A DNA stretch of 32,440 bases from Nocardioidaceae bacterium (GTDB lineage Bacteria; Actinomycetota; Actinomycetes; Propionibacteriales; Nocardioidaceae): positions 1-32,440 of the forward strand of contig JABFXA010000199.1 in NCBI GenBank assembly GCA_013361955.1, read 5' to 3'. Of this stretch, positions 13,982 to 22,091 are shown piece by piece; within the stretch, counting starts at the first letter, position 1, and each line of letters begins with the position of its first letter. The translations under genes were made by a program, and so were the position numbers. Under the pieces are notes generated by a model. The model was not told where the DNA came from. It was given only the letters and a program-made list of their open reading frames with translations, and ran no database searches.

Positions 13982-14088
13982 TCGCCCGCTGATCCAGCCG
14001 GGCGCGCGGTCGCCGGCAGGCCCTCTCGACGACGAGGTCGAGCACGCCCCAGCGCATCGTGCGTCTCTTTCTCGAGGAGCGCATCTCC

Positions 14089-15849
14089 GTGACACCCCCC
14101 AGCAGCACCCCCTCCACGAAGCCGACCACGGCCGCCCCGCCCACCGGGCCCGGCCGCTCCGGACGGGCCCGCCAGAAGCGCGGCGAGGGCCAGTGGGCGC
14201 TCGGCTACCAGGAGCCGCTGAACCAGAACGAGCAGTCCAAGAAGGACGACAACCCGCTCAACGTCCGGGCCCGCATCGAGAACATCTACAGCCGCCGCGG
14301 CTTCGCCTCGATCGACGGCGCCGACCTGCGCGGCCGGTTCCGCTGGTTCGGGCTGTACACCCAGCGCAAGCCAGGTCTCGACGGTGGCAAGACGGGCGCC
14401 CTGGAGCCGGAGGAGCTGGACGACGAGTACTTCATGCTCCGGGTCCGCATCGACGGCGGTCGGCTGAGCACCGAGCAGCTGAGGGTGATCGGCGAGATCA
14501 GCACCGAGTTCGCCCGCGGCACGGCCGACGTCACCGACCGGCAGAACATCCAGCTGCACTGGATCCGCATCGAGGACGTGCCGACGATCTGGGAGCGCCT
14601 CGAGGCCGTCGGGCTGGACACCACCGAGGCCTGCGGCGACTCGCCCCGGGTCATCCTCGGCTCGCCCGTCGCCGGCATCGCGGCCGACGAGATCGTCGAC
14701 GGCACCCCGGCCATCGAGGAGATCAAGCGGCGCTACATCGGCGACCCGGAGTTCTCGAACCTGCCGCGCAAGTTCAAGACCGCGGTGTCCGGGCACCCGA
14801 GCCAGGACGTCGCCCCCGAGGTGAACGACGTGTCGTTCGTCGGCACCACGCACCCCGAGCACGGCCCCGGCTTCGACCTGTGGGTCGGCGGCGGGCTCTC
14901 CACCAACCCGATGCTCGCGCAGAAGCTCGGCGTGTGGGTGCCGGTCGAGGAGGTCGCAGAGGTCTGGGAAGGCGTCATCTCGATCTTCCGCGACTACGGC
15001 TACCGGCGGCTGCGCTCCCGCGCCCGGCTGAAGTTCCTGGTGCAGGACTGGGGCGTCGAGAAGTTCCGGCAGGTGCTGGAGAGCGAGTACCTGCACCGCA
15101 CCCTCGTCGACTGCGACTCCCCGGCCGTCCCCGAGCAGCAGGGCGACCACATCGGCGTGCACCCGCAGAAGGACGGCCGGTACTTCGTCGGCGCGGCGAC
15201 CACCGTGGGCCGCGTCGACGGCCGGGTGCTCACCCGGCTGGCCGAGGTCGCCGAGGAGCACGGCTCGCGACGGGTCCGCACCACGCCGTACCAGAAGCTG
15301 CTGGTGCTCGACGTCGAGGCCGACCGGGTCGACAGCCTGGTCGGCGCGCTCGACGACCTCGGCCTGTCGGCGCGGCCGTCGTACTGGCGGCGCTCGACGA
15401 TGGCGTGCACCGGCATCGAGTTCTGCAAGCTCGCGATCGTCGAGACCAAGGAGCGCGCGGCCGACCTGGTCGCGGAGCTGGAGCGGCGGTTCCCCGACCT
15501 GGACACCCCGATCACCGTCAACGTGAACGGCTGCCCGAACGCCTGCGCCCGCACCCAGGTCGCCGACATCGGCCTCAAGGGTCAGCTGGTCCTCGACCAG
15601 GACGGCAACCAGGTCGAGGGCTTCCAGGTGCACCTCGGCGGCGGCCTCGGCCTCGACCCGCGGTTCGGCAAGAAGCTCCGGGCGCACAAGGTCACCAGCG
15701 CCGGGCTCGAGGACTACGTCACGAACGTCGTGCACGCCTTCCTCGACCAGCGCGAGGACGGCGAGCGGTTCGCCGACTGGGTGGCGCGGGCCGACGACGT
15801 CGCGCTGCGTGGCGAGCAAGGCGTCCGCGAGCTGGAGCCGGCCCGATGA
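14089..15849 (+). CDS. nirA: Ferredoxin-dependent sulfite (nitrite/sulfite) reductase
   Basis: The 586-residue protein is a siroheme/[4Fe-4S] reductase. Two ferredoxin-like and two nitrite/sulfite-reductase repeats are visible; the cluster-siroheme ligands are C440 and C446 in CTGIEFC and C482 and C486 in NGCPNAC. Siroheme-contacting segments such as TDRQNIQLHWIRIEDV are also present. Genes of this family are often named nitrite reductase, but the operon partners cysH and a sirohydrochlorin chelatase show it is the assimilatory sulfite reductase reducing sulfite to sulfide. The GTG at 14089 is chosen because GAGGAG precedes it by 9 bases; the GTG at 14059 would add ten residues. Expression is probably controlled by the leader peptide at 13880-13981. 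The stop overlaps the mini-ORF of the repeat element that follows. Confidence 0.94.
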   Translation: MTPPSSTPSTKPTTAAPPTGPGRSGRARQKRGEGQWALGYQEPLNQNEQSKKDDNPLNVRARIENIYSRRGFASIDGADLRGRFRWFGLYTQRKPGLDGGKTGALEPEELDDEYFMLRVRIDGGRLSTEQLRVIGEISTEFARGTADVTDRQNIQLHWIRIEDVPTIWERLEAVGLDTTEACGDSPRVILGSPVAGIAADEIVDGTPAIEEIKRRYIGDPEFSNLPRKFKTAVSGHPSQDVAPEVNDVSFVGTTHPEHGPGFDLWVGGGLSTNPMLAQKLGVWVPVEEVAEVWEGVISIFRDYGYRRLRSRARLKFLVQDWGVEKFRQVLESEYLHRTLVDCDSPAVPEQQGDHIGVHPQKDGRYFVGAATTVGRVDGRVLTRLAEVAEEHGSRRVRTTPYQKLLVLDVEADRVDSLVGALDDLGLSARPSYWRRSTMACTGIEFCKLAIVETKERAADLVAELERRFPDLDTPITVNVNGCPNACARTQVADIGLKGQLVLDQDGNQVEGFQVHLGGGLGLDPRFGKKLRAHKVTSAGLEDYVTNVVHAFLDQREDGERFADWVARADDVALRGEQGVRELEPAR

Positions 15850-15923
15850 ACTCACCCCACGAAACCGCACTCTGCGCTCGCTTCGCTCACTCCGTTCACG
15901 CTTCCGCGGGGACCCCGAGATGA
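15846..15923 (+). repeat. Short ATGA-junction repeat element, copy A (25-codon mini-ORF)
   Basis: Seventy bases lie between ATGA at 15846-15849 (containing the nirA stop) and ATGA at 15920-15923 (the start of the next gene). The right half includes GCTCACTCCG, CGCTTCCGCGGGGACCCCG and a small palindrome CGGGG-A-CCCCG just before the next ATG. A second copy, in inverse genomic orientation, is at 20396-20473. By hand the two share about 56 of 68 aligned positions with one compensating gap. Each copy forms an ORF of exactly 25 codons that begins in ATGA with the upstream stop and ends in ATGA with the downstream start. Removing the 70 bases plus one ATGA gives a normal 4-bp overlap of nirA and the zinc-ribbon gene, which suggests an insertion with 4-bp target duplication. 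Confidence 0.7.
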
Positions 15924-16096
15924 GCGAGCACGCGCGCGCGGTCCCGTTCCACTGCCCGTACTGCGGCGACGAGAACCTCCGTCCGAGCGAGGAGGGGCAC
16001 GGTTCGTGGGAGTGCCACTCCTGCCTGCGCGCGTTCTCGCTCAAGATGCTCGGCCTGCTCCCCCACCCCTCTTCGCACCAGGAGGCGCCGCGATGA
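15920..16096 (+). CDS. Zinc-ribbon miniprotein of the sulfur-assimilation operon
   Basis: The 58-residue protein has a zinc-ribbon: CPYCGDEN at residues 12-19 and ECHSCLRAF at about 31-39, i.e. two CxxC knuckles. The hydrophobic tail SLKMLGLLP follows. A small protein of this kind stands between nirA and cysH in Streptomyces sulfur operons, where it has sometimes been mislabelled an insertion element protein. Its role is unknown; a redox, iron-sulfur or assembly function next to two Fe-S reductases would be reasonable but is speculation. The ATG at 15920 is stop-start coupled (ATGA) to the repeat mini-ORF upstream, and its own TGA overlaps the cysH ATG. No true Shine-Dalgarno is visible, only GGGGACC. 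Confidence 0.82.
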   Translation: MSEHARAVPFHCPYCGDENLRPSEEGHGSWECHSCLRAFSLKMLGLLPHPSSHQEAPR

Positions 16097-16839
16097 CGAC
16101 GGCGACGACCGAGGCGGCCCGCCTCTTCAAGGGCACCCACGCCGACGGCCGCACCGAGGCCGAGCTCCAGCAGCTCGTCCGGCACGCCGGCGCCGAGCTC
16201 GAGCTCGCCCCCGCCGAGGTGATCATCGAGTGGGCGGTCGCGACGTTCGGCGACCGGTTCGCGATCACCTCGTCGATGAGCGACGCGGTGCTCGCGCACC
16301 TCGCGTCGACCGTGGCGCCGGACATCGACGTGGTGTTCCTCGACACCGGCTACCACTTCGTGGAGACGATCGGCACCCGCGACGCCGTCGAGGCGACGCT
16401 GCCGGTGAACCTGATCAACGTCACCCCGAAGCAGACCGTGGCCGAGCAGGACGCGGCGTACGGCAAGGACCTCTTCGCGCGCGACCCCGACCTGTGCTGC
16501 GCGCTGCGCAAGGTCAAGCCGCTCGAGGAGGCGCTGTCCGGGTACGACGCCTGGGCGACCGGGCTGCGGCGCGACGAGACGCACAACCGGGTGATCGCCC
16601 CCGTCATCGGCTGGGACGAGAAGAAGCGCAAGGTCAAGGTCTCGCCGCTGGCGCGGTGGACGGCCGACGACGTCGACCGGTACATCGCCGAGAACAACGT
16701 CCTGGTGAACCCGCTGCAGTACGACGGCTACCCGTCCATCGGCTGCTGGCCGTGCACCCGGCGCGTGGCGCCCGGCGAGGACCCGCGCAGCGGACGCTGG
16801 GCCGGCACCGGCAAGACCGAGTGCGGCATCCACCAATGA
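16093..16839 (+). CDS. cysH: Assimilatory APS/PAPS reductase with [4Fe-4S] cluster
   Basis: The 248-residue protein belongs to the adenylyl/phosphoadenylyl-sulfate reductases, which form sulfite for NirA. The PP-loop-type nucleotide region ITSSMSDAVLAHLA and VVFLDTGYHFVETI are present. Cluster cysteines are the pair C135-C136 (LCCALRKVKPL) and C218/C221 (GCWPC), and the catalytic cysteine is C244 in ECGIH. The CC...CxxC set indicates the [4Fe-4S] type that generally uses APS, rather than the E. coli-type cluster-free PAPS enzyme. The ATG at 16093 has AGGAGG upstream and overlaps the previous stop as ATGA. cysDNC (sulfate activation) genes do not follow, unlike in many relatives, so they must be elsewhere. 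Confidence 0.93.
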   Translation: MTTATTEAARLFKGTHADGRTEAELQQLVRHAGAELELAPAEVIIEWAVATFGDRFAITSSMSDAVLAHLASTVAPDIDVVFLDTGYHFVETIGTRDAVEATLPVNLINVTPKQTVAEQDAAYGKDLFARDPDLCCALRKVKPLEEALSGYDAWATGLRRDETHNRVIAPVIGWDEKKRKVKVSPLARWTADDVDRYIAENNVLVNPLQYDGYPSIGCWPCTRRVAPGEDPRSGRWAGTGKTECGIHQ

Positions 16840-16907
16840 GCACCACCACGATCCCCACCACCGACAGCGTCGTCGGGCCCACCTCGGACAGGAGGCCCCA
16901 GCCATGA
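16836..16907 (+). CDS. 23-codon coupled mini-ORF between cysH and cbiX
   Basis: Between cysH and cbiX a small ORF begins in ATGA with the cysH stop (16836-16839) and ends in ATGA with the cbiX start (16904-16907). Its threonine- and proline-rich product, MSTTTIPTTDSVV then GPTSDRRPQP, has no recognisable domain. It has no sequence similarity to the repeat mini-ORFs at 15846 and 20396. It may be a translational-coupling spacer, since it contains the GGACAGGAGG ribosome-binding site of cbiX. It could also be the remaining N-terminus of a lost gene, because cysD- or cysC-like proteins begin with similar MTTT-type sequence and normally occupy this spot. Translation is unproven. Confidence 0.3.
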   Translation: MSTTTIPTTDSVVGPTSDRRPQP

Positions 16908-17647
16908 CCGCACCCGCCCTGGTCGCCCTCGCCCACGGCAGCCGTGACCCGCGCTCGGCGCAGACCATCAAGGCGCTCGTCGACGAGGTCCGCAAGACCC
17001 GTCCCGACCTGCGCATCGAGCCGGCGTTCCTGGATCTCTCCAAGCCGTCGTTCCCGACGGTGGTCGACCGGCTCGTCAAGGCCGGGTACGACGAGATCGT
17101 CGTCGTACCGCTGCTGCTCACGGAGGCGTACCACGCGAAGGTCGACGTGCCTGCCGCGGTCCGCGAGGCCTCGGAGCGGCACGAGGGCCTGCGCATCCGC
17201 GCGACCGACGTACTCGGGCTGGAGCCGGTGTTCCTCGAGGTGCTCGACCGCCGGCTGCGGGCCGCGCTGAAGGCCGCCCGGGTCCGCGAGCTCGACGCCC
17301 TGGTGCTGGCCGCGGCCGGCTCCTCGGACCACCTCGCGAACCAGGCGGTCACCCGGCTGGCCCGGCTCTGGGGCACCCGGCACCGGCTGCCGACCGTCGC
17401 GGCGTACGCGTCAGCGGCCCCGCCGGCCACCGGCGAGGCGGTCCGCCAGTTCCGGGCCGAGGGGCGCCGGCACATCGCGGTCGGGTCGCTGTTCCTGGCC
17501 CCCGGCACGCTCCCCGACCGGGCCGGCGAGCTCGCCCTGGAGGCCGGCGCCGTCGCCGTCTCCGCCCCGCTTGGCGCCGACCCCGAGGTGGCCCGCACCA
17601 TCCTCGCCCGCTACGCCGTCGGCGCCGTCGAGCTCGTCCCCGTCTGA
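16904..17647 (+). CDS. Sirohydrochlorin chelatase (CbiX/SirB-like)
   Basis: The 247-residue protein has the two-domain CbiX layout. The N-terminal half opens with LVALAHGSRDPRSAQT, whose histidine is a metal/catalytic residue, and contains VVVPLLLTEAYHAKVDVP with the second histidine. The C-terminal half repeats the fold with less conserved LVLAAAGSSDHLANQAV and IAVGSLFLAPGTLPDR. In this operon the reaction would be insertion of iron into sirohydrochlorin to give siroheme, the NirA cofactor; cobalt insertion for cobalamin is the alternative. The ATG at 16904 has CAGGAGG upstream and is ATGA-coupled to the preceding mini-ORF. It is the last gene of the sulfur operon; a repeat-derived hairpin follows directly after the stop. 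Confidence 0.88.
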   Translation: MTAPALVALAHGSRDPRSAQTIKALVDEVRKTRPDLRIEPAFLDLSKPSFPTVVDRLVKAGYDEIVVVPLLLTEAYHAKVDVPAAVREASERHEGLRIRATDVLGLEPVFLEVLDRRLRAALKAARVRELDALVLAAAGSSDHLANQAVTRLARLWGTRHRLPTVAAYASAAPPATGEAVRQFRAEGRRHIAVGSLFLAPGTLPDRAGELALEAGAVAVSAPLGADPEVARTILARYAVGAVELVPV

Positions 17648-17766
17648 CGCCGAGGCGCGCGTACTGGTGCGTAGATCTGCGCCGAGGCGCGAGTAGTTGT
17701 GAGGACGTCCACGCAACTACGCGCGCCTCGGCGTAGCTGCGGCCGCAACAACACGCGCCTCGGCGT
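17647..17766. repeat. Four-copy palindromic repeat array
   Basis: Four related units with core CGCCGAGGCGCG occur between cbiX and lpdA: direct copies at 17647-17665 and 17678-17700, and inverted copies at 17713-17735 and 17745-17766. The fuller consensus is ACGCCGAGGCGCG followed by nGTAGTTG. Copies 2 and 3 can form a hairpin with a stem of about 20 bp and a loop of about 12-14 bases (TGAGGACGTCCACG region). Copies 1 and 4 could form an outer stem. The array could work as a terminator for the sulfur operon and looks like a REP/BIME-type intergenic repeat. No coding sequence is present. Confidence 0.8.
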
Positions 17767-17810
17767 GGTGACGTGGGCCACCGGCGTCGTGGTCGGGGCG
17801 TCGGCTCCCC

Positions 17811-17816
17811 TAGGCT
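17811..17816 (+). promoter_or_regulatory. -10 box for leaderless lpdA
   Basis: TAGGCT, seven bases before the ATG at 17824, with no Shine-Dalgarno in between (CTGCGGT). Confidence 0.5.
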
Positions 17817-17823
17817 CTGCGGT

Positions 17824-19224
17824 ATGAGCGAACACTTCGACGTCGTCGTCCTCGGCGCCGGACCCGGTGGGTACGTCGCCGCGATCCGCGCCTCGCAGCT
17901 GGGCAAGAAGGTCGCGGTCGTGGAGGACAAGTACTGGGGCGGGGTCTGCCTCAACGTCGGGTGCATCCCCTCGAAGGCGCTGCTGCGCAACGCCGAGCTC
18001 GCGCACATCATCACGCACGAGAAGGACAAGTTCGGGATCACCGGCGACGCGTCGATGGACTTCAAGCCGACGCACGCCCGCAGCCGCAAGGTGTCCGAGG
18101 GCATCGTCAAGGGCGTGCACTTCCTGATGAAGAAGAACAAGATCACCGAGGTCGACGGCTGGGGCACGCTGACCGGCCCGAAGTCGATGGACGTGGCGCT
18201 CAAGGACGGCGGCACCGAGCAGCTCACCTACGACAACCTGATCCTCGCCACCGGCGCGACCACCCGGCTGATCCCCGGTACGTCGCTGTCCGAGCGCGTG
18301 GTCACCTACGAGGAGCAGATCCTCGACGAGCAGCTGCCCGAGAGCATCGTGATCGCCGGCTCCGGCGCGATCGGCGTCGAGTTCGCCTACGTCATGAAGA
18401 ACTTCGGCGTGGACGTGACGATCGTCGAGTTCCTCGACCGGATGGTGCCGACCGAGGACGCCGAGGTGTCCAAGGAGCTGCTCAAGCACTACAAGAAGCT
18501 CGGCGTCACGGTGATGCTCTCGACCAAGGTCGAGTCCATCGACGACTCCGGCGACAAGGTCAAGGTCACCGTCTCCCCCGCGAACGGCGGCGACCAGCAG
18601 GTCATCGAGACCGACAAGGTGCTGCAGGCGATCGGGTTCGCCCCGCGCGTCGAGGGCTTCGGCATCGAGGCCGCCGGGGTCCGGGTCACCGACCGCGGCG
18701 CGATCGAGACCGACGAGTACGGCCGCACGAACGTCGACGGCGTCTACGCGATCGGCGACTGCACCGGCAAGCTGATGCTCGCGCACACCGCCGAGGCGCA
18801 GGGCGTGGTCGCGGCCGAGGTGATCGCCGGCGCCGAGACGATGCCGGTGGCCATCGACTTCATCCCGCGCGCGACGTACTGCCAGCCGCAGGTGGCGTCC
18901 TTCGGCTACTCCGAGGAGCAGGCCAAGGAGAAGGGGTACGACGTCAAGACGGCCAAGTTCCCGTTCTCCGCCAACGGCAAGGCGATGGGGCTCGGCGACG
19001 GAGTCGGGTTCGTGAAGGTGGTCGCCGACGCGAAGTACAACGAGATCCTCGGCGCGCACATGATCGGCCCCGACGTCACCGAGCTGCTGCCGGCGCTGAC
19101 CCTCGCGCAGCGGTGGGACCTCACCGCCGACGAGGTGGCCCGCAACGTGTTCGCGCACCCGACGCTGTCCGAGGCGGTCAAGGAGGCCGTCGAGGGCATC
19201 GCCGGCCACATGATCAACCTCTAG
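17824..19224 (+). CDS. lpdA: Dihydrolipoyl dehydrogenase (E3)
   Basis: The 466-residue flavoprotein reoxidises dihydrolipoamide of pyruvate and 2-oxoglutarate dehydrogenase complexes. It shows the FAD GAGPGG motif (residues 11-16), the redox disulfide C42/C47 in [14 protein letters not shown], the second dinucleotide site [14 protein letters not shown], the FAD-contacting [21 protein letters not shown] and the C-terminal catalytic [11 protein letters not shown] His-Glu segment. Length and motifs are complete. The ATG at 17824 has a TAGGCT -10 box 7 bases upstream and no Shine-Dalgarno, so translation is probably leaderless. The TCAACCTCT at its 3' end (19214-19222) is duplicated immediately after the stop (19226-19234). 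No lipoyl-enzyme partners are adjacent. Confidence 0.96.
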
Positions 19225-19236
19225 GTCAACCTCTGG

Positions 19237-19258
19237 CCGCCCGTCCCTCAGTGGGCGG
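19237..19258. terminator. Hairpin between lpdA and trhA-like gene
   Basis: CCGCCC (19237-19242) pairs with GGGCGG (19253-19258) over a 10-base loop that contains the minus-strand stop codon. It is a plausible shared terminator for the two convergent genes, without a T run. Confidence 0.4.
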
Positions 19259-19916
19259 TGGCGGTGGCGATGGTGACGCCGGCGAGGTGCGCGGAGAACG
19301 CGAGCAGCGTCAGCGCGTGGAACACCTCGTGGAAGCCGAAGTGCCGCGGGAACGGGTTCGGCCGCTGCAGCCCGTAGACCACGCCGCCGACGGTGTAGAG
19401 CAGCCCGCCGAGCGCGACCAGCGCCAGCACCGCCGGCCCGGTGTGCTCGCCGAGCGTCTTGGCGAACGGGATCGCGGCCCAGCCGAGCCCGAGGTACAGC
19501 GGCGTGCACACCCAGCGCGGCGCGGTCGGCCACAGCAGCCGGAACGCGATCCCGACCGCGGCGCCGCCCCACGCCACGGCGAGCAGCAGCGGCCGCGCGA
19601 CGCCGTCGGCGAGCAGCGCGAACGGCGTGTAGGTGCCGGCGATCAGCACGAAGATGCAGGCATGGTCGGCCCGCACCAGCAGCGTGTGCACCCGCGGGGA
19701 CCAGCCGCCGCGGTGGTTGGTCGCGGACACCGCGAAGAGCACCAGCGCGCAGGCCACAAAGACGGCGGCGCCGAGCCGCGGGACGCCGGCGCGGGCGGCC
19801 GGCACCACCACCAGCCCGGCCAGGAGCACGAGGGGGACGGCGGCCGCGTGCAGCCAGCCCCGCATCCGCGGGCGGACGGCCCGGTGTGCAGGAGGGGCGG
19901 TCACGGCGTGGCTCAC
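19248..19916 (-). CDS. trhA: Haemolysin III / TrhA (PAQR-like) membrane protein
   Basis: The 222-residue protein has about seven hydrophobic segments and the HlyIII landmarks: SATNHRGGWSPRVHTLLVRADHA written as ATNHRGG then RVHTLLVRADHACIFVLIAG, TYTPFALL, and the C-terminal HFGFHEVFHALTLLAFSAH with the conserved metal-binding histidines. Bacterial members (YqfA/TrhA) affect membrane energetics and lipid homeostasis; haemolytic activity is not implied. The GTG at 19916 is preferred because GGAGGAGG ends 5 bases upstream; the frame runs open to 19988 and an ATG at 19862 region is a shorter option. It is convergent with lpdA. Confidence 0.88.
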   Translation of the reverse strand: MSHAVTAPPAHRAVRPRMRGWLHAAAVPLVLLAGLVVVPAARAGVPRLGAAVFVACALVLFAVSATNHRGGWSPRVHTLLVRADHACIFVLIAGTYTPFALLADGVARPLLLAVAWGGAAVGIAFRLLWPTAPRWVCTPLYLGLGWAAIPFAKTLGEHTGPAVLALVALGGLLYTVGGVVYGLQRPNPFPRHFGFHEVFHALTLLAFSAHLAGVTIATATAH

Positions 19917-20021
19917 CAGGGCCTCCTCCAGGTCGTGTCGTCCCCACGTGCTTCGGCTACTCCTACCCGCTGCTGAGGCAACCGGCACATTCCGGTCAAG
20001 ACCAGTGCGTACGGCGCAGCC

Positions 20022-20399
20022 TCAGCCGACCAGCCGGTCCAGCAGGTGCTCGAGCTGCCGCGCCGGGTCGTCCGTGGTGCCGCCGTGCACCGGACCGGGC
20101 TGCACGACGGTGCTCCTCGGCGCCTTCAGGAACCCGAACCGGGTGCCCAGCGGACCCCGCCCGGCGTCGCCCGCGGACGCGTCCCCGCGGCACACCGACT
20201 CGACCGCCCGGAGGGCCGAGCACACCCCGTCGAGGTCCACCTCGGGGCTGAGCGCGGCGAGCCGCTCGCGGTCCACGTGGCAGGCGGCCTCGAGGTAGTC
20301 GGCCTGCTGGCAGTAGAGCACCACGCCGACGTTCACGAACTCCTCGCGGTCCACGCGGGGCACGCACCGGAGCACGACGTACTGGAAGGGCAGGCTCAT
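20022..20399 (-). CDS. DUF3037 protein, partner of HipA-like kinase
   Basis: The 125-residue product begins SLPFQYVVLRCVPRVDREEF and continues VNVGVVLYCQQADYLEA, the signature of DUF3037 proteins. A small C-terminal part contains GTRFGFLKAPRSTVVQPGP and ends in a helix DPARQLEHLLDRLV. The function is unknown. Genes of this family are regularly found directly after a HipA-like kinase gene, as here. The ATG at 20399 is ATGA-coupled to the mini-ORF of the repeat element; without that element it would overlap the kinase stop by four bases. No Shine-Dalgarno is visible apart from GGGGACC in the repeat. Confidence 0.83.
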   Translation of the reverse strand: MSLPFQYVVLRCVPRVDREEFVNVGVVLYCQQADYLEAACHVDRERLAALSPEVDLDGVCSALRAVESVCRGDASAGDAGRGPLGTRFGFLKAPRSTVVQPGPVHGGTTDDPARQLEHLLDRLVG

Positions 20400-20473
20400 C
20401 CGGGGTCCCCGCGGAAGCGCGACCGGAGTGAGCCCTGCGAGCGCAGGGAGCGGTTCAGAGGGGTGGGGATCAT
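20396..20473 (-). repeat. Short ATGA-junction repeat element, copy B (25-codon mini-ORF)
   Basis: Second copy of the element at 15846-15923, now on the minus strand. Seventy bases lie between ATGA (20473-20470, containing the HipA-like stop) and ATGA (20399-20396, start of the DUF3037 gene). The right half is nearly identical to copy A (GCTCACTCCG, CGCTTCCGCGGGGACCCCG). The left half is more diverged and contains a perfect CCCTGCG-CT-CGCAGGG palindrome not kept in copy A. The mini-ORF has 25 codons like copy A but uses a different reading frame of the repeat; a one-base gap on each side restores the coupling. It encodes an arginine- and serine-rich peptide (SLRSQGSLRSRFRGDPG). Confidence 0.7.
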
Positions 20474-21243
20474 GCTGCACCCTCCAGCGGCAGCCAGGAC
20501 CGGTCGCCGCCGACGCGGGCCAGCAGGAACCCGGCGTAGGTCTCGCGCAGCCCGTCGGCGTCGGGCACGCCCGGCACCGGCTCCAGCCAGTCGTCGGGGA
20601 CCAGGGCGAGCACGTCGCGGAGCAGGTCGCGGGTGACCCGCGGGGCGAGGTCGGCGTCGGCGGCGGGCAGGCCGGGGAGGTGGGCGCGGAGCACGTGGTC
20701 GGAGGCGTCGTACGGCTGCCGCGCGAAGCGCTCCGCGGGCCCGACACCACCCGCCCAGCCGTGGTGGAAGTACAGGCAGGCGCCGTGGTCGATCGCCCAC
20801 AGGTCGCCGTGCCAGACCAGCAGGTTCGGGTTGCGCCAGGATCGGTCCACGTTCGCGGTGAGCGCGTCCACCCAGAGGATCGCGGCGGCCACGTCGGGGT
20901 CGGGGGTGGTCGCGGAGTCGTACCCGAAGGAGCCGGGCAGGAAGTCGACGCCGAGGTTCAGCCCGATGCTCGCGGTGAGCAGGTCCTGCACCTCCTCGTC
21001 GGCCTCGTAGCGGCCGATCGCCTCCACCAGGTCGACCGCGACCAGCTCGGGCGTGCGGATGCCGAGGGCGCGGGCCAGCTCGCCGACCACGACCTCCGCG
21101 ACCAGCACCTTGAGGCCCTGCCCGGCGCCGCGGAACTTGCACACGTAGAAGCCGAGGTCGTCGGCCTCGACGAGTCCCGGCAGCGAGCCGCCCTCGCGGA
21201 GCGGGGCGACGTACCGCGTCGCCCGCACGGTGCGCACCGTCAC
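20470..21243 (-). CDS. HipA-like protein kinase
   Basis: The 257-residue protein is a compact HipA-type kinase without the N-terminal HipA domain. The candidate ATP lysine is K36 in FYVCKFRGAGQG, with a flexible glycine segment. DALTANVDRSWRNPN (126-140) resembles the HipA catalytic loop DxxxxNxDR..xN, and WAIDHGACLYF (149-159) stands in for the DFG-like metal-binding segment. Classic HipA phosphorylates glutamyl-tRNA synthetase and is the toxin of hipBA; here there is no HipB antitoxin, and the partner gene is DUF3037 instead. The GTG at 21243 overlaps the PPK2 stop by four bases (GTGA), so the two are translationally coupled. A toxin role is not established for this subgroup. Confidence 0.82.
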   Translation of the reverse strand: MTVRTVRATRYVAPLREGGSLPGLVEADDLGFYVCKFRGAGQGLKVLVAEVVVGELARALGIRTPELVAVDLVEAIGRYEADEEVQDLLTASIGLNLGVDFLPGSFGYDSATTPDPDVAAAILWVDALTANVDRSWRNPNLLVWHGDLWAIDHGACLYFHHGWAGGVGPAERFARQPYDASDHVLRAHLPGLPAADADLAPRVTRDLLRDVLALVPDDWLEPVPGVPDADGLRETYAGFLLARVGGDRSWLPLEGAA

Positions 21244-22091
21244 GACAGCGGGTCCTCCTCGGCCAGCCGGCGGCGCTGCTCGTCGACGTCGAAGGTGGGT
21301 GCCGGCCAGGCCGGGTCGAGCCGCCGGAACGTCTCGAGCAGCACCTGGGCCACCGCGAGCTTGCCGTACCACTTCCTGTCGCCGGGGACGACCAGCCAGG
21401 GCGCGTGCTCGGTGCCGGTCCGCTCCAGGGCGATCTCGTAGGCCTCCATGTACGCCGGCCAGAACCGTCGCTCGTCGATGTCGGAGGGGATGAACTTCCA
21501 GCTCGTGTCGGGGCTGTCCAGCCGCCGCTGCAGCCGCTTCTTCTGCTCGTCGGCGGAGATGTGCAGCATGCACTTCAGCACCGTGGTGCCGCCGTCCACG
21601 AGCCGGCGCTCGAACGCGTTGATCGCGTCGTACCGGCGCTCGATCTCGTCGGGGCTCGCGAGCCCGCGCACCCGGGCGATCAGCACGTCCTCGTAGTGGG
21701 AGCGGTCGAAGACGCCGAGCATGCCCGGCTCCGGCACCCGCGGCTCCACGCGCCACAGGAAGTCGTGCTGCCGCTCCTCCTCGGTGGGCGCCTTGAACGA
21801 CGTGATGTGCACGCCCTGCGGGTCGACCAGGCCGACCGCGTGCCGGACGATGCCGCCCTTGCCGGAGGTGTCCATGCCCTGCAGCACCAGCAGCACGCTG
21901 CGCGTCCCGCCGTGCCGGCCCTCGGCGAACAGCCGCTCCTGCAGGTCGGACAGCTCGTCGCCGAGCGCGGTGAGCGTGTCCGCGGCGTCCCCCTTGTCGC
22001 CCGAGAAGCCCGGGGTGTCCTCCGGGTCGTACGACGACAGGTCGACCGACCCGCGGGGCACGGTCAGCTGCTCGAGGAAGGACTCCGCCAT
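21240..22091 (-). CDS. ppk2: PPK2-family polyphosphate kinase
   Basis: The 283-residue protein has the PPK2 core: Walker A QGMDTSGKGG (about 71-80), the lid-type region and Walker B in LGVFDRSHYEDVLIARV, followed by TTVLKCMLHISADEQKKRL and the C-terminal RTGTEHAPWLVVPGDRKWY. PPK2 enzymes phosphorylate nucleoside mono- or diphosphates with polyphosphate (or run in reverse). The subclass cannot be assigned safely by eye. The ATG at 22091 is 7 bases after a CATAAT box (minus strand, about 22099-22104) that overlaps the TAA stop of the preceding small gene, so PPK2 can have its own leaderless transcript. It is coupled to the HipA-like kinase downstream through a GTGA overlap. Confidence 0.9.
   Translation of the reverse strand: MAESFLEQLTVPRGSVDLSSYDPEDTPGFSGDKGDAADTLTALGDELSDLQERLFAEGRHGGTRSVLLVLQGMDTSGKGGIVRHAVGLVDPQGVHITSFKAPTEEERQHDFLWRVEPRVPEPGMLGVFDRSHYEDVLIARVRGLASPDEIERRYDAINAFERRLVDGGTTVLKCMLHISADEQKKRLQRRLDSPDTSWKFIPSDIDERRFWPAYMEAYEIALERTGTEHAPWLVVPGDRKWYGKLAVAQVLLETFRRLDPAWPAPTFDVDEQRRRLAEEDPLS

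Follow-up and report, generated by a model that had tools for sequence, protein, structure and literature searches.

A dispersed palindromic repeat behind stop codons of Nocardioidaceae and its possible function as a translated relay between overlapping genes

Four-base ATGA overlaps are a common junction between bacterial genes, and they seem to offer no room for insertions. In the window analysed here, a stretch of 32,440 nucleotides from a Nocardioidaceae bacterium (contig JABFXA010000199.1), two such junctions are each occupied by a copy of the same short repeat.

Two copies in the window and their dispersed family

The first junction, on the plus strand, follows an ORF for a nirA-type nitrite/sulfite reductase (14059–15849; Pfam NIR_SIR and NIR_SIR_ferr), the TGA stop of which is located inside an ATGA at 15846–15849 and has a similar position in relatives. 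The nirA stop overlaps the ATG of a mini-ORF of 25 codons (15846–15923), and in element-free relatives the same overlap is found directly before the zinc-ribbon sequence. The mini-ORF has an ATGA overlap at each end and contains a repeat core of 65 nt (CACCCC...GACCCCG, 15853–15917) with a left spacer of 3 nt and a right spacer of 2 nt. Its stop overlaps the start of the next gene in a second ATGA at 15920–15923, a likely target-site duplication. The next gene is a small zinc-ribbon ORF (15920–16096) with two C-x-x-C pairs in its sequence and no Pfam match. At the second junction all features are on the minus strand. The upstream ORF (20470–21756) has an uncertain true start and no Pfam match in the 237 residues tested, and its stop is in the ATGA at 20470–20473. 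The core, also of 65 nt, is located at 20401–20465 with a left spacer of 4 nt and a right spacer of 1 nt, within a second mini-ORF of 25 codons (20396–20473) that likewise has an ATGA overlap at each end, and the downstream gene belongs to the DUF3037 family (20022–20399; PF11236, E 2.5e-42).

The preliminary description of this DNA had counted 70 bases between the two tetranucleotides at the nirA junction, which is correct between ATGA 15846–15849 and ATGA 15920–15923, and the distance is again 70 bases on the other strand between TCAT 20396–20399 and TCAT 20470–20473. The similarity of the two copies is 85% (E = 4.5e-15; 65 nt), slightly above its hand count of 56/68, and, as it had stated, each copy is an ORF of 25 codons with coupling through ATGA on either end, the reading frame differing between the two (MNSPHETALCARFAHSVHASAGTPR and MIPTPLNRSLRSQGSLRSRFRGDPG). 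The opposite orientation that it ascribed to them is true on the map of the window only, and relative to the genes both copies point the same way. The covariance models of Rfam 15, applied to window positions 15000–21000 with E values up to 1, give nothing over either copy; the sole match in this region is MIR6201 at 17675–17738, far below its gathering score. Positions 17647–17766 form a long imperfect palindrome with adjoining 60-nt arms that are 75% complementary, located at the end of and behind ORF 16904–17647.

The two copies belong to a dispersed, palindromic repeat family with the core CACCCCACGA...GCGGGGACCCCG and observed core lengths of 44–66 nt. The genome of the window is a draft of 4.71 Mb in 478 contigs, and a count by BLAST and exact motif gives 11 copies in it, ten with BLAST matches of E <= 1e-8 and one recognisable copy with E = 0.026, so the genome-wide search that the preliminary description proposed did find further copies, and chance similarity is not the cause. 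Two of these copies stand in tandem, chained by ATGA. In the family of the window the exact motif is present in at least 101 of 294 genomes, with up to 20 exact copies per genome among the matches listed, and the reversed motif, used as control, in 0 of 294. Among the GTDB species genomes the motif CACCCCACGA N18–48 GCGGGGACCCCG is found in at least 119 stretches with at least 124 copies. About half of the hosts of 80 such stretches are Nocardioides among the matches listed, and the others, again among the matches listed, are Flexivirga, Leekyejoonella, Knoellia, Tetrasphaera, Propionibacteriaceae, Geodermatophilus and a few unexpected MAGs. An exact-motif search favours well-kept copies. The 124 copies constitute the first set, and a held-out set of 80 regions chosen from the match list, part of them from species already in the first set, added 73 new copies after removal of duplicates. 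One 59-mer is present five times in genome G302. The exact motif is absent from the viral contigs searched, and one 59-base copy used as query at E 1e-3 gave no match in phages and plasmids. Literature searches, including one with the motif, found no description of this repeat among the papers listed, in agreement with the preliminary description, by which such an element would be new, and we know of no repeat reported to enter stop/start overlaps and to act as a coupled mini-ORF in any frame.

Stem pairs 9–12 of the core lie outside the positions that the search motif prescribes, and they are Watson-Crick in 153, 152, 126 and 126 of 172 unique cores, and the maxima in 500 shuffles are 95, 111, 94 and 83. 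This palindromic covariation is above every shuffle, indicating a selected palindrome. The folding of the two window copies is weak, with z-scores of 0.31 and -2.02 on the two strands for the first and -0.76 and -0.14 for the second. The energy of the minus strand is lower in 122 of 124 copies, and a strand-specific hairpin under selection was considered and rejected, since base composition gives much of this difference in a shuffle control; the asymmetry that remains is found at two A.C stem positions only, and one of these is part of the search motif itself.

Other repeats were noted alongside this family. A second dispersed repeat, with a stretch like GGACACGCGCGAGCGGAGCGAGCGCAGAC in both orientations, is present at L012, L013 and L015–L019 of the genome of the window (match near 1501), with about 18 bases matching the query, and L020 and L021, also of this genome, have stretches like GGTCGAGGTGCGAGCGAAGCGAGCCTCGAAACC, possibly a third repeat type. 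At L064 and L111 (Flexivirga caeni and Segeticoccus) one copy is apparently nested inside another. Copies behind TAG, TAA or TGA stops in Flexivirga, Nostocoides, Tetrasphaera and others (L050, L053, L055, L057, L084, L128 and L138) in some cases seem to extend past GACCCCG with partial conservation, and perhaps constitute a longer relative of the element.

Location at stop codons and element-free junctions

Copies of the element follow immediately after a gene's stop codon, and one orientation predominates. For the Nocardioidaceae copies, comprising the Nocardioidaceae hosts of the GTDB scan and the family of the window (n = 115), a stop triplet ends 1–4 nt left of the core in 105 cases, 103 of them TGA and 2 TAG, and at eight control offsets a stop triplet is found in 1–8 of 115. 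In other families the stop triplet is present 1–4 nt to the left in 26 of 40 copies (17 TGA, 6 TAG and 3 TAA; control offsets 0–5), and in the remaining copies of the GTDB scan in 31 of 42 (control offsets 1–3). By codon-position GC, both flanking genes are co-directional with the element for 81 of 124 copies in the first set and 53 of 73 in the held-out set, both run against it for 8/124 and 1/73, and the calls are mixed for 4 and 9, the rest having no confident call on at least one side.

In Nocardioidaceae the element is mostly located at NTGA stop/start overlaps, with an NTGA at each end. A junction copy was defined by an NTGA within 10 nt on the left and an [AG]TGA within 15 nt on the right, and 196 of the 197 distinct copies were used, one being too close to the end of its locus; 103 of the 196 are junction copies, representing 97 distinct junctions, with three rows lacking an upstream protein. 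The copies are accordingly not random in intergenic DNA. The targeting or tolerance of ATGA junctions that had been proposed from the window is supported by these 103 copies between two NTGA overlaps, but it is too narrow, as 93 of the 196 are without NTGA on both sides and copies in other families also follow TAG or TAA, and the broader rule is adjacency to a stop codon.

Both window junctions can be compared with relatives. For the nirA junction 30 loci were fetched and 24 read, our own included, and 2 of the 23 relatives are unreadable at the junction; the element is absent in all 21 readable ones, and 20 of them have an NTGA in which the upstream stop overlaps with an ATG or GTG. For the second junction 23 loci were fetched and 19 read, our own included, with the overlap judged by eye from the flanks, and in 18 of 18 relatives the element is absent and an ATGA or GTGA overlap present. 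Empty sites having no overlap would have spoken against an insertion into overlaps, and the overlap is kept in 38 of 39 element-free relatives at the two junctions. The insertion with duplication of ATGA suggested in the preliminary description fits these sites. In one pair of a filled (L075) and an empty (L046) site, the insert is flanked by ATGA at either end, and the empty site has a single ATGA. The N of the left and right NTGA is G/G in 9 copies, G/A in 15, A/G in 7 and A/A in 72 (Fisher p = 0.002), a correlation of the kind that duplication predicts. The base following ATGA is equal on the left and right in only 11 of 44 copies of the commonest class, and a target duplication, which the insertion presumably produced, is clear for NTGA only. 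What looks like the same nirA/zinc-ribbon junction in another genus (L239, genome G302) has a different copy, of 47 nt, and comparison with the window copy (L001) suggests that this overlap has been hit repeatedly, apparently independently.

Frame closure and a proposed translational relay

In 89 of the 103 junction copies the mini-ORF closes exactly at the following start codon, in 12 it is continuous with the reading frame of the downstream gene, and 2 show neither arrangement; with one copy per junction these numbers are 85, 10 and 2 of 97. When left and right halves were re-paired at random, the number of closures among the 103 averaged 49.6 over 20000 permutations and never exceeded 64. 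Closure is found in 52 of 60 copies with a left spacer of 1 nt, 12 of 14 with 2 nt, 16 of 16 with 3 nt, 9 of 11 with 4 nt and 0 of 2 with 5 nt, and the commonest pairs of left and right spacers are 1+1, 3+2, 2+0 and 4+1. Left and right spacers vary together, so that closure predominates at every left spacer of 1–4 nt and all three frames are used. None of the 89 closing mini-ORFs has a premature stop. The core itself has stops in 3, 0 and 1 of 196 copies in the three plus-strand frames and is almost stop-free in all of them, so an open frame alone is no evidence, and it is the spacing that counts. In the genome of the window all 11 copies fit the geometry, nine as ATG or TTG mini-ORFs closing on ATGA or GTGA, one with the same geometry and a CTG start, and one (L011) fused in frame to the downstream gene. 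In the loci examined the mini-ORFs have 19–30 codons.

When the downstream frame was called from codon-position GC for copies with a left NTGA, 38 were closing, 11 in frame and 3 neither in the first set, and 34, 7 and 4 in the held-out set; three of these seven "neither" rows are first members of tandems, with closure on the copy that follows. Under stricter criteria, the co-directional copies of the held-out set for which a left stop and start could be used comprise 27 exact closures, 5 near ones, 7 fusions and 8 others, most of the last without a nearby downstream start in the called frame. C-terminal read-throughs are found for 4 of 81 copies in the first set and 1 of 53 in the held-out set, and most copies lie between genes.

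A length in multiples of three, for which the preliminary description proposed to look, is not quite the rule, and what holds is that left spacer, core and right spacer together fit the next start or the downstream frame. Its idea that coupling is preserved is in line with these data, the coupling geometry being kept by compensating spacers in whichever frame the repeat is read. Among the 103 junction copies, 94 have a core whose length is 2 mod 3. For 31 non-junction copies from other families the length classes are 11, 11 and 9, and among non-junction Nocardioidaceae copies 32 of 45 are also 2 mod 3, so the length rule may partly be common descent. An identical 59-mer core is found in two frame classes (L247 and L056). 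The nearest neighbour agrees in frame class for 73 of 103 copies (shuffle mean 53.7, maximum 75), which indicates that the frame class is partly inherited with the core and that the insertion events are not fully independent. At apparently orthologous ABC-transporter junctions in two species of a genus (L011 and L027) the copy is in frame into the permease gene in both, and L027 has ATC where L011 has its ATG start, so that the repeat may now supply the start codon, with a nearby TTG as the alternative.

A Shine-Dalgarno motif is located ahead of the mini-ORF start in 48 of 103 junction copies and in 80 of 515 control stretches. The right end of the repeat has a GGGGA, and in 88 of 103 copies 7–9 nt separate its last G from the following start; the pairing of the GGGGA to the 16S tail, of which we used the presumed sequence, has a median of -5.7 kcal/mol against -3.5 kcal/mol when shuffled. 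A canonical Shine-Dalgarno sequence is present at this end in only 3 of 103 copies, and a duplex reaching -6 kcal/mol in 3% there versus 44% ahead of the mini-ORF; GGGGA may therefore be a weak substitute Shine-Dalgarno site.

From the positions and frames described above we consider it probable, at about 0.75, that this is a REP/MITE-like mobile actinobacterial repeat that comes to lie at stop codons and is retained where it serves as a translated relay of the coupling. The element would insert behind a stop codon, and a copy would persist if the nucleotides at the junction make the frame fit; the near absence of stops from every plus-strand frame of the core would allow it to stay there. A ribosome ending the upstream gene would restart on the overlapping ATG, which retains the old Shine-Dalgarno site, read the repeat as a short mini-ORF and stop on the next overlapping start codon, where the GGGGA may aid the start of the next gene. 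Less often it would run on into that gene and give an N-terminal extension. The selected trait would be the passage of ribosomes and not the peptide.

Other explanations account for some of the same data. The repeat could be a host regulatory device, in which a hairpin close to the stop would adjust polarity or the translation of the downstream gene as an attenuator or coupler, and which has been spread by copying because it is useful. Its prevailing orientation to the genes, its location next to stops in several families, a GGGGA that is spaced like a Shine-Dalgarno site and could be hidden by the left CCCC arm, and copies beside core genes that, to judge from their protein sequences, are probably nuoD, panC and dnaJ, would suit such a device. 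Against it are the patchy presence, with the motif in at least 101 of 294 family genomes and with orthologues of both window junctions that lack the element, the lack of any shared junction (97 distinct ones among 103 copies) and the mRNA strand of the window copies, which folds not clearly better than shuffles, and we regard this reading as rather unlikely. Less likely still is an ordinary REP or MITE inserting anywhere, purifying selection alone giving the look of stop-codon targeting. In-frame fits are what selection would leave, and PMC3733652 and PMC12306157 also place REPs of other bacteria close behind genes. Free intergenic DNA should, however, be at least as permissive, and NTGA junctions should make up very few of the permissive bases, whereas 105 of the 115 Nocardioidaceae copies are within 4 nt of a stop triplet and one orientation predominates.

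The mini-ORFs, open and coupled in the loci examined, might also be read as a conserved family of real small proteins between genes, which is highly improbable. The conservation is that of a DNA palindrome, and as the same DNA is read in three frames, peptides of different frame classes share no sequence; a family with a common peptide function is ruled out by this mixing of frames. An artefact of chance similarity or of draft assembly could be suspected from the 478 contigs of the genome, but the matches come from many genomes independent of each other, some of which, like G309, consist of a single contig, and the family-wide motif counts against the empty reversed-motif control refute it, leaving a negligible probability.

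Returning to the mobile relay, a wider conclusion is drawn tentatively, with somewhat less than even odds. The element may represent a class of mobile DNA that parasitises start/stop overlaps, recognising a stop codon or NTGA, entering in the sense orientation, being stop-free in all three frames, carrying its own substitute Shine-Dalgarno site and acting as a portable translational relay that does not break the operon, and depending for its movement on an enzyme so far not associated with repeats. If this is true, a repeat that enters such overlaps at 97 distinct junctions sampled, in any frame, means that an operon can gain DNA with its coupling intact, and the copies are a natural experiment on how strictly re-initiation at overlaps is selected.

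Candidate mobilisers and comparison with known systems

Movement of the element presumably comes from a separate enzyme, and the question raised is which enzyme finds stop codons. The families searched were Y1, IS110 and RVT_1. RAYT/Y1_Tnp (PF01797) is absent from all 29 genomes examined for it, among which 26 are carriers, with a positive control of 5/14, and is rejected as mobiliser for now. IS110 is over the cut-off in 5 of 10 genomes and RVT_1 in 5 of 12; both are present in some carriers and absent from the genome of the window, and they were set aside for this reason. The element profile gave nothing better than E 0.7 around 12 IS110 or reverse-transcriptase loci (up to 1.5 kb on each side). 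One copy (L115) is about 1 kb from an apparent reverse-transcriptase ORF of G302, which looks coincidental, and the genes between eight near copy pairs, read by eye, include no obvious transposase.

The attC sites of integrons are imperfect palindromes with a variable loop, located right behind the stop of a gene and co-oriented with it. The element is also an imperfect palindrome behind a stop and co-oriented with the gene, but unlike at attC sites the flanking genes keep their order in element-free relatives at both window junctions, and the conserved ends do not seem to resemble attC core boxes. With prokaryotic MITEs it shares the small size, the near-palindromic structure, the lack of a gene of its own and the short direct repeats flanking it, here NTGA. 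It differs from them in that no related autonomous insertion sequence was found among the families searched, in a target duplication that is partly demonstrated, and in its strong preference for stop codons and for one orientation.

Like the REP sequences associated with RAYT, the element is a short, dispersed, imperfect palindrome in many copies behind genes. PMC3733652 and PMC12306157 describe REPs as lying near the 3' end of the upstream ORF, and the latter reports ribosome stalling at E. coli REPs no more than 15 nt from a stop. REP copy numbers are above 100 according to PMC2817692, compared with up to 20 exact copies per genome here among the matches listed. The tetranucleotides GTAG and CGTC are absent from the palindrome termini, the conserved ends being CACCCCACGA and GGGGACCCCG, as read in the own-genome copies found without the motif and in the 124 motif copies, where both ends are fixed by the motif. 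With neither such a tag nor a RAYT found in the genomes searched, the element is not filed as a REP. It also has one prevailing orientation and direct tandems where REPs have alternating BIMEs, and it sits at NTGA overlaps, forming coupled mini-ORFs in any frame. Compatibility with coding is shared with the Rickettsia palindromic elements, which according to PMC10969869 are palindromic, compatible with translation, about 150 bp long and in frame within coding DNA; in-frame N-terminal fusions number 12 of 103 here. The Rickettsia elements are found inside genes and extend one protein, whereas the present element is mostly a separate mini-ORF between two genes, read in three frames.
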